Source: Peredibacter starrii (lineage in GTDB: Bacteria > Bdellovibrionota > Bacteriovoracia > Bacteriovoracales > Bacteriovoracaceae). Taken from it: a stretch of 64,000 nucleotides of DNA. Both the position numbers and the translations under genes were made by a program. Location: the NCBI RefSeq assembly GCF_034259205.1, contig NZ_CP139487.1:2790001-2854000 (forward strand). Direction: 5' to 3'. The notes under the pieces are model-generated. The model saw only the letters and a list, made by a program, of their open reading frames with translations, was not told the origin of the DNA and ran no database searches. This document shows positions 8,789 through 43,755 of the stretch, one piece after another (position 1 is the first letter of the stretch; each line of letters begins with the position of its first letter).

Positions 8789-9673
8789 TTACTGCTTATT
8801 AACTTTATCCATTAGAGCATTACGCTTGGCCTGGTCAGCACCTGTATCACGTAGGTCCTGAACATAGTAAGCAAGTGCCCATAGTTCTTCATCAGTCACT
8901 ACGTCTTTCCAACCTGGCATACCTGAACCAGTTACACCGTACATAAGACGTTGAACGATTGAAGGTACGTCCGTGATAGAACGAAGTGAGTGATAAGTGA
9001 AATCTGGTGGAAGAACTTTGTAGTTATACTCACCGTCTTGAACTTTAACCTGATAAATGTCAGAGCCAAGCTCGATCGTTGTACCCATTTCTTTCGCCCA
9101 ACCGTTGATCTCTTCTTTCGTAGCGTAACCACGGTGACACTGAGTACAAGCTGCAGTTACGTGATAAACCTTACGACCTTTTTCGATCGCCTGATGACGA
9201 TAAACTTCGCCGAATGGATCAGCAGGAAGCTCGATTTTAGTTCCAAGAACTTTATCTTTACCTTCCCAAACTGCTGGAGCGAAAGTCTTGATGTACTGGA
9301 TAACAGCATCTAGACGCTCATCCGAGATGTCCCAAGGAAGCATTGCTGTCCCTTTAAGACCGTGACGAATGATACGAGCGAAATCTTCATCATGCGGAAG
9401 TTCGCCGTAAGCAGTCCAAGGGAATTTATAAAGCCCTTGAGTGAAGTCACGTGGAGGTGGAAGAAGACCTTTAGAAGCAGGACCATCACCTTTACCCGAA
9501 GCTCCGTGACACTGAATACAGTATTCAACGTAAGTCGTGTAACCAAGGTTAAGAGTCGAAGCTTTTACCTCTTTGCCGGCAAGAATTTTGCTTTCCTTGA
9601 ACGGCGCTTTCTCTACCACGCACGCAGTAGATAAGAGAGCTACAATTGAAAGTACGATTAGTTTCATCGTCAT
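8789..9673 (-). CDS. Dihaem cytochrome c lipoprotein
   Basis: 294 residues with lipobox LLSTA-C18. The first haem site is C52-I-Q-C55-H56 followed by GASGKGDGPAS, with a probable Met ligand in GTAMLPW. The second is C176-T-Q-C179-H180, with a probable ligand in GSGMPGW. Two class I cytochrome c domains on a membrane-tethered protein fit an electron carrier between a quinol-oxidising complex and the adjacent aa3-type oxidase. Subunit II here lacks a fused haem c domain, so this protein may supply that function. Confidence 0.88.
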   Translation of the reverse strand: MTMKLIVLSIVALLSTACVVEKAPFKESKILAGKEVKASTLNLGYTTYVEYCIQCHGASGKGDGPASKGLLPPPRDFTQGLYKFPWTAYGELPHDEDFARIIRHGLKGTAMLPWDISDERLDAVIQYIKTFAPAVWEGKDKVLGTKIELPADPFGEVYRHQAIEKGRKVYHVTAACTQCHRGYATKEEINGWAKEMGTTIELGSDIYQVKVQDGEYNYKVLPPDFTYHSLRSITDVPSIVQRLMYGVTGSGMPGWKDVVTDEELWALAYYVQDLRDTGADQAKRNALMDKVNKQ

Positions 9674-39418: not shown

Positions 39419-41632
39419 ATGAAAAACTCAATTATCCTGTTGTTTTTAATGCTTCTCCCGACGCTGACTTTTGCTGGTCTCATCGATGATCCCTTGTTGA
39501 AGAACTGGAATGTGGTCATGAAGGGCTCAAAAGGTGGGAATACTATTGAGAGCTTTGAGCGCAAAATCTACACCCCTTACTCTCGTTATACCGTTGCTCA
39601 GATTACAAATACTGAACTTCATTTTGAAGGACCCAAGACTCCGGATGCAGTTCGTGAGTTCCTTTCAAAAGAATTTAAGCTCGTGGGTCTTCAAGAAAAG
39701 AGCATTGAAGGTGCCCATCGTTTTGAAGGATATCGCCAGGACATCAACCGTCAGGTGGTAGTGTTTGTGTCTTTCAATAAATCAAAGATCAAAGTTTCAT
39801 CGGGCTTCTTCCGTCCAACTTATGGCCGTGTAGTGGCCCTGGAAGTGGAACTCCTTCACCGAAAATATCATAAGCTCACGGGATCAGTGTCTCACTCCCC
39901 TGTCTTTAAACTTCTAAATCCTTTTATTAATGAGGCCTACGCCCAAACCGATTGTACCAAGTGCGCAGGGAATCCAATGTGTCTTCTTCTCTGTCGTTCA
40001 GGTAATACTGGCACAGGAGGAAACTCTGGTCTTCTTTCTGGTCTGGATTTAAGTGGAATTCAAAACGAGCTCAGTAACGCCAACACTCAACTCACGGCCA
40101 TTAACGCTAACGTCGGTGCAGTTAATACAAATCTCTCTGGAGTAAACGCCAACTGGGGCAATACCAACATTCAAATTGGTAATGCTAATACCAATTGGGC
40201 CAACACCAATACGCAAATCGGAAACCTAAACGGCACGATCAATACTCAGATCGGTAACTTTAATAACAATCACGCAGACACCAATACTCAACTGGCCGAG
40301 GCCAATAAAAATATCGCCAATCTCACCAATGTCGCTGACAAGCGAGCCGGTGAGGCCCTGCAGGAATCACAGGCCTGGAGAGCAATGACGGAAAAAGAAT
40401 CTCAGGAATGGCGAGCTCTCGCAAAAGAGCAAACTGACCGAGGTCTGGCAGTCGCCGAGAAGATGGCCGATCCAAACCACCTTTTCAAAATGGCCACGTA
40501 CAGTGCGGCCGGTGCTGTTCTGGGTGCCAGTGTCGCCAACCTTGCAATTAGTGGTGTGACCACTGCCGTTTCCTTTCTTTATAAATGGGCAACTGGTGAG
40601 TTAAAAGAAATGAAACAGAACGAACTCTTACGCGAGTTTTCTTTGGCGATGAAAGTTTATGAAGACAGTTCAAAAATTTCAAAAGGCCTGGAGTTAAGTA
40701 TTGATTCGGCCTTGGCGAACATGGCCCTTCATAAAAAGTTCCAACTTGAGAACTCCGAAGTGCTCGCGAATATTCAAAAGTATATTCTCGAAACAGAATT
40801 TCAAATTGAAGACGCAAAGAAGAACCGCTGTGTGGAAGAACTTATTCCTCTTAACCAGAAGCTCGTTGAATTTCACAGTTTGGCGAAGATCCTGGACATG
40901 GCCGATCCACAGAAGAAAATGTGTCTCGACTTAAAAGAGTTGTTCAGAAAACTCGCCCAGGTGGAAGGTGTGCTACAAAACGCTCGCCCTAACCTTCTAA
41001 AAGCAGAAGAGGCCCTAAACTGGCAAATTGCCCGCGACCAAAACGATGGCGCTGAGATTCTGGAAGACATTCGTAAGGGCAAACTTTCAAAAGAAGTTAA
41101 GAATACCCAAGACAAACAACGTGAAGAGCTTTACGAGCGTAACAAAAAAGACACCGAGGAACTCACTAAAGATGTCGTGGAAGATTGCCGCGATTCATTC
41201 CGCGTGTTTGATCATGACATTAAGAAAGCAGATCTTAAAAAGTATTGTGAATCGCTTCTAACTGATAAGGCCGCACCGACTCCAGAAGGTCTGGTCAAGG
41301 CCCTGCCTCAGCTGAACGATAAGCAGAGACAACAAATCATGCGTGAGTTTAAGAAGAAGTATGTTCAGTTAGGAATTGATAAAGTCGCTGCTTACGAAAA
41401 ACAGCGTAAGGAATTGTTCTCTGATTTTGAAAAAGAATCTGCCCGTCACCACGAAGAAATCTCAAATTTAAAAGACCGTGTTCAGATGGATCCAAGAATC
41501 GCCCTGAATGAAATGAAGGCCATTAATGAGTTCGTTGAAAAACTCATGAAAGAGCAGGCCTACATTTATTCAGATGGAATGCGTGTGAAGAAGGCCCAGT
41601 TTGAAGAGGCCTGTCAGTCCCTATCGGAATGA
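39419..41632 (+). CDS. Exported protein with Asn/Thr heptad-repeat rod, glycine-zipper hydrophobic segment and coiled coils
   Basis: 737 residues; the signal peptide ends near LTFA-G and ACAAGGAGACT precedes the ATG. Residues ~25-150 form a beta-rich N-domain, then four Cys (TDCTKCAGNPMCLLLC, 177-192). From ~211 to ~305 there is a strict seven-residue pattern in which a large hydrophobic residue (L, V, W, I, F) recurs every seventh position among N and T (NTNWAN, TNTQIGN). A hydrophobic Gly/Ala-rich segment follows (YSAAGAVLGASVANLAISGV, 361-380), and the last ~330 residues are Lys/Glu-rich coiled coil. The design recalls trimeric stalks or membrane-inserting rods. No family is recognised. 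Confidence 0.75.
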   Translation: MKNSIILLFLMLLPTLTFAGLIDDPLLKNWNVVMKGSKGGNTIESFERKIYTPYSRYTVAQITNTELHFEGPKTPDAVREFLSKEFKLVGLQEKSIEGAHRFEGYRQDINRQVVVFVSFNKSKIKVSSGFFRPTYGRVVALEVELLHRKYHKLTGSVSHSPVFKLLNPFINEAYAQTDCTKCAGNPMCLLLCRSGNTGTGGNSGLLSGLDLSGIQNELSNANTQLTAINANVGAVNTNLSGVNANWGNTNIQIGNANTNWANTNTQIGNLNGTINTQIGNFNNNHADTNTQLAEANKNIANLTNVADKRAGEALQESQAWRAMTEKESQEWRALAKEQTDRGLAVAEKMADPNHLFKMATYSAAGAVLGASVANLAISGVTTAVSFLYKWATGELKEMKQNELLREFSLAMKVYEDSSKISKGLELSIDSALANMALHKKFQLENSEVLANIQKYILETEFQIEDAKKNRCVEELIPLNQKLVEFHSLAKILDMADPQKKMCLDLKELFRKLAQVEGVLQNARPNLLKAEEALNWQIARDQNDGAEILEDIRKGKLSKEVKNTQDKQREELYERNKKDTEELTKDVVEDCRDSFRVFDHDIKKADLKKYCESLLTDKAAPTPEGLVKALPQLNDKQRQQIMREFKKKYVQLGIDKVAAYEKQRKELFSDFEKESARHHEEISNLKDRVQMDPRIALNEMKAINEFVEKLMKEQAYIYSDGMRVKKAQFEEACQSLSE

Positions 41633-41749
41633 TATGGACTGACCGTCAAAGACAATCGGTTCTTGCTTATCTGTATTAACTGATTTGTGTGAATAACTAG
41701 CGCAAGAAACAAGTGAAAGAGACATCAATAACACCATAAAATAAGACAT
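41621..41749 (-). CDS. 42-residue micro-lipoprotein under a manganese riboswitch
   Basis: ATG at 41749 is preceded by a strong GAGGAGG at an ideal distance. The product begins MSYFMVLLMSLSLVSC, a lipoprotein signal with lipobox LVS-C16, leaving a 27-residue mature peptide (ending DGQSISFR) with mixed charge. The end overlaps the end of the converging heptad-repeat gene by 12 nt. A yybP-ykoY riboswitch closes 23 nt upstream of the ATG. I know of no family. Expression would be expected to respond to manganese. Confidence 0.72.
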   Translation of the reverse strand: MSYFMVLLMSLSLVSCASYSHKSVNTDKQEPIVFDGQSISFR

Positions 41750-41772
41750 AGAATCCTCCTCGTCTTAGTTTG

Positions 41773-41858
41773 TATGGTCTTGCTCGTTATTTTCCGGCCG
41801 GGGTTACCCCGTGCTGACGACCTAGAAAACTTCGTTCTGAAGTGAGCTACTCCCCATA
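41773..41858 (-). ncRNA. yybP-ykoY manganese riboswitch
   Basis: On the minus strand the element is closed by P1 TATGG (41858-41854) with CCATA (41777-41773). Inside it are the family's conserved blocks in the right order: GGGGAGTAGC, hairpin ACTTC/GAAGT, GTCGTCA, hairpin GGGG-TAA-CCCC followed by GGCC, and AGCAAGACC before the closing strand. This agrees with the known yybP-ykoY aptamer, in which GGGGAGUAGC, GUCGUCA and GCAAGACC frame the Mn2+ site. Members usually control mntP, TerC-like exporters or P-type ATPases. Here the 42-residue lipoprotein is immediately downstream. Confidence 0.85.
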
Positions 41859-41870
41859 TTAAGAAAGACG

Positions 41871-41899
41871 ATTATGGACTGAAATCTGTGACGAATAAA
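41871..41899 (-). promoter_or_regulatory. Promoter of the riboswitch transcript
   Basis: TTTATT, a 17-nt spacer and CATAAT (5/6). Transcription would start about 5-6 nt before the riboswitch P1 stem, as expected for a riboswitch leader. Confidence 0.5.
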
Positions 41900-41915
41900 A
41901 TTGAAAATTTCGATA

Positions 41916-41940
41916 GGGATATAAAGAAAATCTATATCCC
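41916..41940 (-). terminator. Hairpin after ilvA
   Basis: GGGATATA / TATATCCC, a perfect 8-bp stem with a 9-nt loop 25 nt after the ilvA stop. The tail (TATCGAAATTTTC) is only moderately T-rich. Confidence 0.45.
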
Positions 41941-41965: not shown

Positions 41966-43186
41966 TTAAATGATCTGGCACTGAGGGAAATCTTTCTTCA
42001 TTTCTTTCAGAAGTTGTTCCAGATGCTCCTTCCCTTTGGTCTCAAGAGTGAAAATCACGTTAGTTCCCGAAATCCCGGTATTCACCGAATCTCGGTCATG
42101 GACCACTTGAAGCACGTTCGCTCCCACATTTTTGATAATGCCGGTAAGCTGGTGCAGAAGTCCCGGTCTGTCTGCAATCGGAACTGCAATTCGAACCTTA
42201 CGATTTGATTCAATCAGACCCCGATCAATAATTCTCTCAAGAAGATTCACATCGATATTACCGCCGCAAATAACGAGCACCACTTTTTTGTTTTTAAATT
42301 TCTTCGGATCTTTTTTATGAAGCTGATCAAAGAGCGCCAGAGGAAGCGCCCCTGCGCCTTCTGCAATCACTCGTGCCTTCTCCATTAATTGAAGAATCGC
42401 CCACGCTAGCTTCTCATCATCAACTGAGTGAGTAGAAGTAACAACTTCTTTTAAAAGTTTATACATGTCCGGTGAAACTCTCTTCACGCGAATGCCATCT
42501 GCGAAGGTTTCGGCCTTATCGATCTGCTTAATTTTTCCCGAATTAAGTGAGTCCACCATAGCGCTACAACCAGTTGCCTGGCCTGCGATCACTTTCGTTT
42601 TCGACTTACTGCCTTTAAGTACCTGCCCCATGCCTGAAACCAGACCACCGCCACCAATTGACGAGAAAATATAATCCATATCAGGAATTTGCTCTAAAAG
42701 TTCAAAGGCCACAGTTCCCTGGCCCGCAATTACTTTTGGATCCTCATATGGGTGAACAAAGGCCATGGGAGTCTTCTTCATCAGCTCCTGAGCGTAAGCA
42801 AAAGAGTCCTCAATACTTGCTCCGGCAAGAATCACTTTCGCACCAAGAGTTTCCGTGTTTCTGATTTTTGTCAGAGGAGACCCTTCCGGCATAATGATTG
42901 TTGCTTTCACACCAAACCGAGCTGCGGCCCATGCCACACCTTGAGCGTGGTTACCTGCACTCACTGCCAGCACACCTTGCTTTTTTTCTTTAGCAGTCAG
43001 AGAAGAAATTTTATTTGTCGCTCCTCTCATCTTGAAAGAACCGATGGGAAGCATGTTCTCAAGCTTTAAGAAGATCTCGCAACCGTATTGCTTTGAAAGC
43101 CACTCGTTATAGATCAACGGTGTTGGATGAATGATTTTACCCAACGTTTTATAAGCTTCTTTAAACTCTTTAAAGTCAATCTTCAT
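41966..43186 (-). CDS. ilvA: Threonine ammonia-lyase with C-terminal ACT domain
   Basis: 406 residues, the length of the shorter TdcB/IlvA form. PLP-binding K52 lies in GSFKMRGA, SAGNHAQGVA binds the substrate carboxylate, and SSIGGGGLVSG is the phosphate loop. One ACT domain ends the protein (RIAVPIADRPGLLHQLTGII). The enzyme deaminates threonine to 2-oxobutanoate, leading to isoleucine or to threonine breakdown. It overlaps mntP by 1 nt (TAATG), an odd metabolic pairing. The hairpin and riboswitch lie just downstream. Confidence 0.94.
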   Translation of the reverse strand: MKIDFKEFKEAYKTLGKIIHPTPLIYNEWLSKQYGCEIFLKLENMLPIGSFKMRGATNKISSLTAKEKKQGVLAVSAGNHAQGVAWAAARFGVKATIIMPEGSPLTKIRNTETLGAKVILAGASIEDSFAYAQELMKKTPMAFVHPYEDPKVIAGQGTVAFELLEQIPDMDYIFSSIGGGGLVSGMGQVLKGSKSKTKVIAGQATGCSAMVDSLNSGKIKQIDKAETFADGIRVKRVSPDMYKLLKEVVTSTHSVDDEKLAWAILQLMEKARVIAEGAGALPLALFDQLHKKDPKKFKNKKVVLVICGGNIDVNLLERIIDRGLIESNRKVRIAVPIADRPGLLHQLTGIIKNVGANVLQVVHDRDSVNTGISGTNVIFTLETKGKEHLEQLLKEMKKDFPQCQII

Positions 43187-43755
43187 TAGGCCCTCTTATA
43201 GAAAATCGCCAGAACGATTTCCACTCCTAGAATAATAAAAATAAGTCCTGCAAAACGGAGTAACCATTTGTCCGGAATTTTTTGAAAAAATTGTGAGATT
43301 AGATAAAACAATCCACACACAAGAAAAGTCACAATTCCAACTGTGAGTGCGGCCATGTATGGATGCGGAAGTGTTCCGAAACTAACTCCAGAAACCAGAG
43401 CATCAATTGAAGTTGCAAAACCTAAAAGAATAATGGGCATGAGGCCCCACTCTAATTCGCGGTCCTCTTCGTTCAAACTCTCCTGAACAAATTTAAAAGC
43501 GATCAGGAAGAAGATCGTCGCAACGACAAATTGGAAAAGATAACCATAACTTGAAAAGGTGAACAGATAGCCCGCAAAACTGCCGGCCCAAAGCATGAGG
43601 AACTGAAAAATGCCAAAGGCCGCGGTCACTAAAAGTCCGCGTTTTAGTCTCTCTGGTTTTGAATGATGAACCTGCAGAAGACCAATGGCAAAGGTCACCA
43701 CCGCAGCATCAATTGCCAAAGCCAGCCCCAGGAGCAGTATCTCAAGTGTAATCAT
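43186..43755 (-). CDS. mntP: Manganese efflux pump
   Basis: 189 residues with six membrane helices, the length of E. coli MntP (188). The two repeated acidic motifs of the family are present: LALAIDAAVVTFAIGL (D16) and FATSIDALVSGVSFG (D118). The first motif departs from the common AMDAFAVS form. MntP exports Mn2+ across the inner membrane. AAAGGA lies upstream of the ATG. Its 78-nt upstream gap is too short to hold a yybP-ykoY aptamer, and instead carries two overlapping inverted repeats; the Mn riboswitch sits two genes downstream. Confidence 0.88.
   Translation of the reverse strand: MITLEILLLGLALAIDAAVVTFAIGLLQVHHSKPERLKRGLLVTAAFGIFQFLMLWAGSFAGYLFTFSSYGYLFQFVVATIFFLIAFKFVQESLNEEDRELEWGLMPIILLGFATSIDALVSGVSFGTLPHPYMAALTVGIVTFLVCGLFYLISQFFQKIPDKWLLRFAGLIFIILGVEIVLAIFYKRA

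Follow-up and report, generated by a model that had tools for sequence, protein, structure and literature searches.

A compact, P4-less yybP-ykoY-type aptamer and its probable translational control of a 42-residue lipoprotein in Peredibacter starrii

The stretch of DNA analysed here, called the window, covers 64,000 nucleotides of the Peredibacter starrii genome (contig NZ_CP139487.1). On its minus strand, a short aptamer sequence lies behind ilvA and directly before a frame of 42 codons. The features of the locus, in window coordinates, are as follows.

43186..43755, minus strand: mntP (PF02659, Pfam E=1.6e-20), upstream neighbour without an aptamer, outside the switch
41966..43186, minus strand: ilvA, threonine ammonia-lyase (TIGR01127, 420 bits), upstream neighbour, outside the switch
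41901..41916, minus strand: perhaps a degenerate dyad box TTATCTATTTGATCAA (10/16 match, weak)
41871..41876, minus strand: -10-like CATAAT, possible leader promoter (weak; read from the sequence only)
41773..41858, minus strand: compact yybP-ykoY (Mn2+) aptamer of 86 nt (models R1 and R2, covariation over 30 sequences)
41858-41854/41777-41773, minus strand: closing helix P1, TATGG/CCATA
41855-41846, minus strand: aptamer element GGGGAGTAGC, with loop L1 being GGGGAGUAGC
41847-41844/41785-41782, minus strand: inner helix GCUC/GAGC
41843-41839/41833-41829, minus strand: hairpin P2
41829-41790, minus strand: P3 with the loop CGUCA and the terminal hairpin, followed by the aptamer element AGCAAGA
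41821-41815, minus strand: aptamer element GTCGTCA
41815..41819, minus strand: CGUCA of loop L3 (columns 48-52 of alignment A1, invariant)
41784-41776, minus strand: aptamer element AGCAAGACC
41733..41778, minus strand: expression platform (fold z=-3.1; partner-swap tests; opening cost)
41778-41773/41738-41733, minus strand: ACCAUA, which includes the P1 3' strand, pairing with UAUGGU of codons 4-6
41767-41762/41747-41742, minus strand: inner hairpin UAAGAC/GUCUUA, which holds the ribosome-binding site (RBS)
41755..41760, minus strand: Shine-Dalgarno AGGAGG (from the sequence; relatives have a GGAGG-type site in this position)
41621..41749, minus strand: micro-lipoprotein MSYFMVLLMSLSLVSC/ASYSHKSVNTDKQEPIVFDGQSISFR, 42 codons and 42 residues (lipobox Cys shared by 27 frames)

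The preliminary description had read a yybP-ykoY aptamer from GGGGAGTAGC, GTCGTCA, AGCAAGACC and the closing TATGG/CCATA helix, and all of these elements were confirmed at the coordinates above. P4, one of the four helices described for the yybP-ykoY family (PMC9190785), is absent, and just a few unpaired nucleotides separate P3 from the inner helix. By analogy, A41815 may be the positional counterpart of A41 of L. lactis, the invariable adenosine that contacts the metal (PMC9190785). Of the promoter that had been placed just before the aptamer, the -10-like CATAAT was the only trace; a consensus scan found no sigma-70-type promoter there. In relatives, the dyad box TTATCTATTTGATCAA was observed ∼45-50 nt 5' of the aptamers (for example in L069, L070, L073 and L082), often with an NhaR-like LysR gene divergent from it or downstream of it, and the box is maybe the operator of this regulator.

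The preliminary description had also named a covariance-model search with RF00080 as the check on the family assignment. It was found that this Rfam model of 177 positions gave no match in the window, either at the gathering threshold or at E≤10, and none in the window's own genome, probably because the model expects helices that are absent from the compact form. As for its controls, E. coli and B. subtilis were recognised, and its own gathering cut-off was passed in just 2 of 14 control genomes. Sub-threshold matches of RF00080 were obtained at sibling loci, the best in G013:C115 (29.9 bits, E=3e-6) and others in G002, G003 and G006. Compact members of yybP-ykoY may be under-annotated generally.

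By using the core pattern GGGGAGTAGN{40,70}GCAAGACC, 15 sites were found in 10 of the 26 genus genomes, with 0 for the reversed control pattern; a small lipoprotein frame lies behind 13 of them and TerC behind 2. Model R1 was built from these 15 Bacteriovoracaceae sites, the window included, and its structure was drawn by hand, as the fold of the 15 sequences by MAFFT/RNAalifold put P2 and P3 wrongly. R1 scored 78.1 bits (E=1.5e-20) at the window aptamer, whose sequence is among its training set. The R2 score was 80.5 bits, and one aptamer was found by R2 in the window genome. R1 also recovered the E. coli mntP riboswitch, unseen in training, at the correct place and on the correct strand (19.6 bits, E=0.0028). 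In the family-wide search, 34 sites at E≤0.01 were examined.

In an alignment of 30 relatives, double compensatory changes were observed in 18 of the 22 base pairs, and all five helices contained pairs altered on both sides. Pairing cells amounted to 91.5% compared with 71% in shuffles, and double-changed cells to 152 compared with 48.5; when the partners were slid by one column, pairing cells dropped below 49%. Helix P1 occurs as AUGG/CCAU, UUCAG/CUGAA, CGUGG/CCACG and GGUAG/CUACC across loci. The structure is favoured by the fitting of the alignment to the model, yet such fitting cannot account for the result of the sliding control or for how many types of pair occur. L1 (GGGGAGUAG) and CGUCA of L3 with its invariable A were invariant in the 15 sequences and near-invariant in the 30. 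Because the junction varies in the family, to judge by the helices read in the Rheinheimera and Castellaniella copies (P4 and no P2), P4 was not treated as strictly defining, and the assignment rests on the core and the covariation.

A chance resemblance with no riboswitch behind it would agree with the lack of an RF00080 match in the window and with the folding energy of the aptamer alone, which is unremarkable (z=-0.9). The covariation already refutes this explanation, and the recurrence of the element and the independent match to E. coli mntP speak against it as well, so that its probability is negligible. The expected RF00080 match was missing, while the assignment itself stood: the clade-specific model, the sub-threshold sibling matches and the heavy covariation overturn the negative result. 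On this comparative evidence, we regard the window RNA as confirmed to be a real yybP-ykoY-type aptamer, a P4-less compact form of the known class.

The window RNA has in common with the E. coli mntP riboswitch (RF00080) the L1 sequence, the GUCAACA loop, G(G)C-AGACC and the order P1-P2-P3, and translational control would be shared by the two. In contrast to the E. coli RNA, with its P4, long P3 and exporter target, the window form has no P4, is 86 nt long and has a micro-lipoprotein as target. The L. lactis yoaB riboswitch resembles it in the core loops and in P1 as the switch helix; yoaB acts by transcription termination, whereas the window shows no terminator and has an RBS hairpin instead. 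Short forms were also seen outside the clade, before TerC/Alx-type genes in Rheinheimera and a betaproteobacterium and before a shorter TerC-type gene in Castellaniella (genes judged from translated sequences). As far as their helices can be read, P2 is absent and P4 is kept in all three, and a form with P2 but without P4 may be confined to the Bacteriovoracaceae clade.

The spacer between aptamer and frame is 23 nt long and carries the AGGAGG. The strong RBS and the micro-lipoprotein gene just behind the aptamer, as previously described, were thus found, and the pair recurs in relatives. Conservation of the small frame in relatives, on which the preliminary description had made its proposal depend, was observed as well (27 frames). 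The frame has LVSC at residues 13-16 after a hydrophobic, signal-peptide-like stretch, in agreement with the lipobox pattern [LVI][ASTVI][GAS]C, and the lipobox cysteine, C16, is invariant in 27 of 27 frames, the window included. In the window copy and most MS-type members, the n-region lacks a positive charge, with no K or R ahead of C16; K/R is present there in the MF.R, MK and MR subgroups. This lack is a formal weakness, and lipidation at C16 is likely. A C-terminal SPGYxxxRQMDERSLRxGFxER is common to one subgroup of the lipoproteins. According to the +2 rule of E. coli, lipoproteins without D at +2 go to the outer membrane, and as the window lipoprotein has no D at +2, an outer-membrane location is predicted by this rule.

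In close pairs of relatives, dN/dS was 0.04-0.24 and the changes were mostly at third codon positions, indicating that the protein is made and selected; the divergent window copy is in no close pair. A Pfam search with the 42-residue lipoprotein gave no match. As the preliminary description had proposed, it may serve as an Mn-responsive envelope factor, which is still the most reasonable guess. MntS of E. coli (42 aa) is a very small, Mn-linked protein, and the equal length is probably a coincidence. MntS is repressed by MntR and is not known to be a lipoprotein, whereas the window protein has a lipobox and a riboswitch of its own.

The window frame and a convergent gene of 737 codons (39419-41632) meet tail to tail, so that no gene other than that of the lipoprotein lies behind the switch. 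In L058, L059 and L062, too, the lipoprotein gene is followed by a convergent one, and in L068 and L081 an intrinsic terminator lies directly behind it. The arrangement in the window and in L068 and L081 shows that control can have the lipoprotein as its single target.

The nearby mntP had been described as having no aptamer in its own leader. This was borne out on reading the 78-nt leader, which holds no aptamer core; the aptamer lies behind ilvA, not in the mntP leader. It had further been suggested that the RNA might still serve the mntP-ilvA locus, as a regulatory RNA acting by antisense, in trans or through 3'-end control. What speaks for this is closeness only, the mntP start being ∼1.9 kb upstream on the same strand. 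mntP was found in 25 of the 26 genus genomes, but in every other genome with both, it was on a different contig from the aptamer or tens of kilobases away, and its adjacency is peculiar to the window. The expression platform, too, matches the lipoprotein start. By synteny, mntP-ilvA was rejected as the target of the aptamer, and a service to it in the manner suggested is highly improbable.

Among named genome records, the carriers of the aptamer were Bacteriovoracaceae, including MAGs labelled Bacteriovorax stolpii and Halobacteriovorax. Of the 34 family aptamers, 27 are followed by a lipoprotein frame of 38-52 residues (in 21 genomes, 16 of the genus and 5 of a sister genus). The remaining sites precede TerC (3), the membrane subunit of an ABC-type exporter (2), a UPF0016 gene (1) or no frame (1, a weak site). 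The compact copies before TerC were L079, L080 and L086. P4-bearing family copies precede MntP and UPF0016 in sister genera, and the genes found behind copies in other parts of the phylum are one for a P-type ATPase and UPF0016 genes. The association with exporters is thus lacking in the window and present in relatives, for compact copies (TerC) and for family copies (UPF0016, MntP). No aptamer could be seen at the four TerC-type genes of the window genome. When P4-bearing forms were sought with a general core pattern, the reversed control equalled its matches and no further aptamer was found in the genus, and a plasmid search gave no match.

Several single loci were also noted. Two aptamer-lipoprotein units lie 2.3 kb apart in G013:C115 (L120:6838-6934 and 9139-9235), with Balon-like genes nearby. 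The weak aptamer-like site of L085 (G015:C76:15212-15298; 24 bits), with no frame behind, is perhaps a decayed copy or chance. The ABC-type exporter membrane subunit directly under the aptamer in L065 and L066, without a Pfam match, is a candidate metal exporter; it was also seen in the aptamer neighbourhood of L110, L112 and L122, and HlyD and outer-membrane-factor genes adjoin it. In L070, L083 and L082, a frame judged by sequence to be beta-carbonic anhydrase-like lies behind the lipoprotein.

Behind the lipoprotein, on the same strand, a Balon-like protein of ∼340 residues is encoded in 11 loci (L109, L110, L111, L112, L113, L116, L117, L120, L130, L132 and L134) at a distance of 0.7-2.1 kb. 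It matched the ribosome hibernation factor model NCBIfam NF052287 with a score under the cut-off, and its profile found PDB 8rd8 chain B (E=3e-4), which is deposited as a methyl-accepting chemotaxis protein and which we take to be the Balon entry. A protein of 119-131 residues with weak S30AE (RaiA-type) similarity is encoded beside the Balon-like gene in seven loci, in several of them between it and the lipoprotein, and 11 loci have linked NhaR-like LysR genes. An S30AE (RaiA)-like frame stands immediately behind the aptamer in one genome from another family of the phylum (L168 / L180:1626-2027). Balon genes most often adjoin RaiA, and a word search of the same paper found no mention of manganese (PMC10901736). 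The lipoprotein of the relatives precedes Balon-like and S30AE genes in this usual pairing. Unlike such stress operons, the window lipoprotein has no Balon/RaiA neighbour, and the Balon-like gene of the window genome lies far from the aptamer site; the linkage is a lead rather than a demonstrated role of the window gene.

It may be asked whether the small frame acts mainly as a leader whose translation controls the downstream operon of NhaR-like, RaiA-like and Balon-like genes, the peptide being dispensable. The Balon-like gene behind on the same strand in the 11 loci, and an NhaR-like gene that abuts or overlaps the lipoprotein stop in four, would fit such a role. It is nevertheless unlikely in view of the purifying selection on the small protein, the convergent next gene in the window, L058, L059 and L062, and the terminator directly behind in L068 and L081.

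For the lipoprotein as the controlled gene, the expression platform was compared with versions having swapped partners. The native hairpin had a mean energy of -11.8 kcal/mol compared with -8.5 kcal/mol with swapped partners (0/5000), and the pairing probability between the P1 strand and the ORF was 0.81 compared with 0.57 (0/20000 permutations); as the loci are related, the permutation counts overstate independence. The alternative pairing covaries with P1, with matching P1 strands and codons such as CCAAAUA/UAUUUGG (L057), CACGCAUU/AAUGCGUG (L071), CGUAAAA/UUUUACG (L060) and, before the ABC exporter of L065, GACCAUAG/CUAUGGUC. The cost of opening the ribosome footprint in the window was 14.2 kcal/mol without P1 and 9.1 kcal/mol with P1. 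Over the loci, clearing the ribosome site cost 12.9 kcal/mol on average without P1 and 7.4 kcal/mol once P1 was closed, and the cost fell in 29 of 31 loci. This relief was only modestly specific, being 5.4 kcal/mol natively and 3.6 kcal/mol when the downstream parts were swapped (p=0.03); since part of it is generic, the argument for the mechanism rests on the swap tests. When P1 was enforced, equilibrium RBS pairing and accessibility changed little and the inner hairpin persisted. A mutually exclusive pairing of the P1 3' strand is well supported by these sequence comparisons, and a translational ON switch would fit them.

In known members, P1 is the switch helix that the ligand stabilises, from which the ON direction follows, and the L. 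lactis yoaB riboswitch is reported to work in this direction (PMC9190785). Without metal, the P1 3' strand ACCAUA would pair with UAUGGU of codons 4-6 and lengthen the hairpin that encloses the Shine-Dalgarno sequence and the start codon, giving low translation. Mn2+ would dock L1 with the CGUCA loop, so that P1 closes and the outer helix is lost; with the weaker inner hairpin alone left, ribosomes could initiate. The lipoprotein would then join the envelope in a response to excess manganese (possibly to alkaline stress), to which TerC, UPF0016 or ABC exporters and the linked Balon-/RaiA-like ribosome-hibernation factors would belong in relatives. We consider it probable that a compact, P4-less yybP-ykoY (Mn2+) riboswitch controls in this manner the translation of one gene, that of the 42-residue, probably outer-membrane lipoprotein. 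The sequence comparisons show the family of the aptamer, the covariation of the alternative pairing, a small protein that is conserved under selection and its position as a lone gene; Mn2+ as the ligand, the ON direction, the membrane location and the part played in metal stress are inferred from them.

The ligand deserves separate consideration, because the pocket or the missing P4 might have shifted this fold to another divalent ion or to pH, with the lipoprotein answering that signal. Some of the known Mn riboswitches may be variants that have been retuned to other metals, and ligand-altered variants of the motif are expected (PMC7266159); alkaline pH is a further signal for the riboswitches of mntP and alx (PMC9603457). 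NhaR-like regulators beside many copies and the atypical target genes point in the same direction. However, L1, CGUCA and AGCAAGACC are unchanged, the same compact form stands before TerC/Alx-type proteins, and copies of relatives precede MntP and UPF0016. A shifted ligand therefore has a minor share of the probability, and Mn2+ remains the preferred ligand.

The yybP-ykoY class is among the most abundant riboswitch classes and serves as a marker of metal exporters. In literature searches, no yybP-ykoY or Mn riboswitch was found described for Bacteriovorax or Bdellovibrio, and nothing relevant on an Mn riboswitch with a small lipoprotein. What is new here is a compact yybP-ykoY form, missed by the standard model and with non-exporter targets, in the predatory-type Bacteriovoracaceae. 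The finding extends the known control range of a widespread metal sensor, whose usual target is a metal exporter, to a very small lipoprotein kept by selection. With its P1 strand paired to coding sequence, the RNA also offers a clean comparative case in which a riboswitch constrains the first codons of its gene.

The finding also raises the question of manganese control of an envelope lipoprotein and, in relatives, of ribosome hibernation. As a tentative idea, to which we give less than even chances, a compact Mn2+ (or Mn/alkaline-pH) riboswitch class may have been rewired in Bacteriovoracaceae, so that it governs a programme of dormancy and envelope change in place of metal export. It would turn on a fast-diverging micro-lipoprotein and, via shared operons or directly, Balon-/RaiA-type factors, the lipoprotein codons being retained as the antisense partner of P1. 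If this is true, metal excess would put the ribosomes of these bacteria to sleep.
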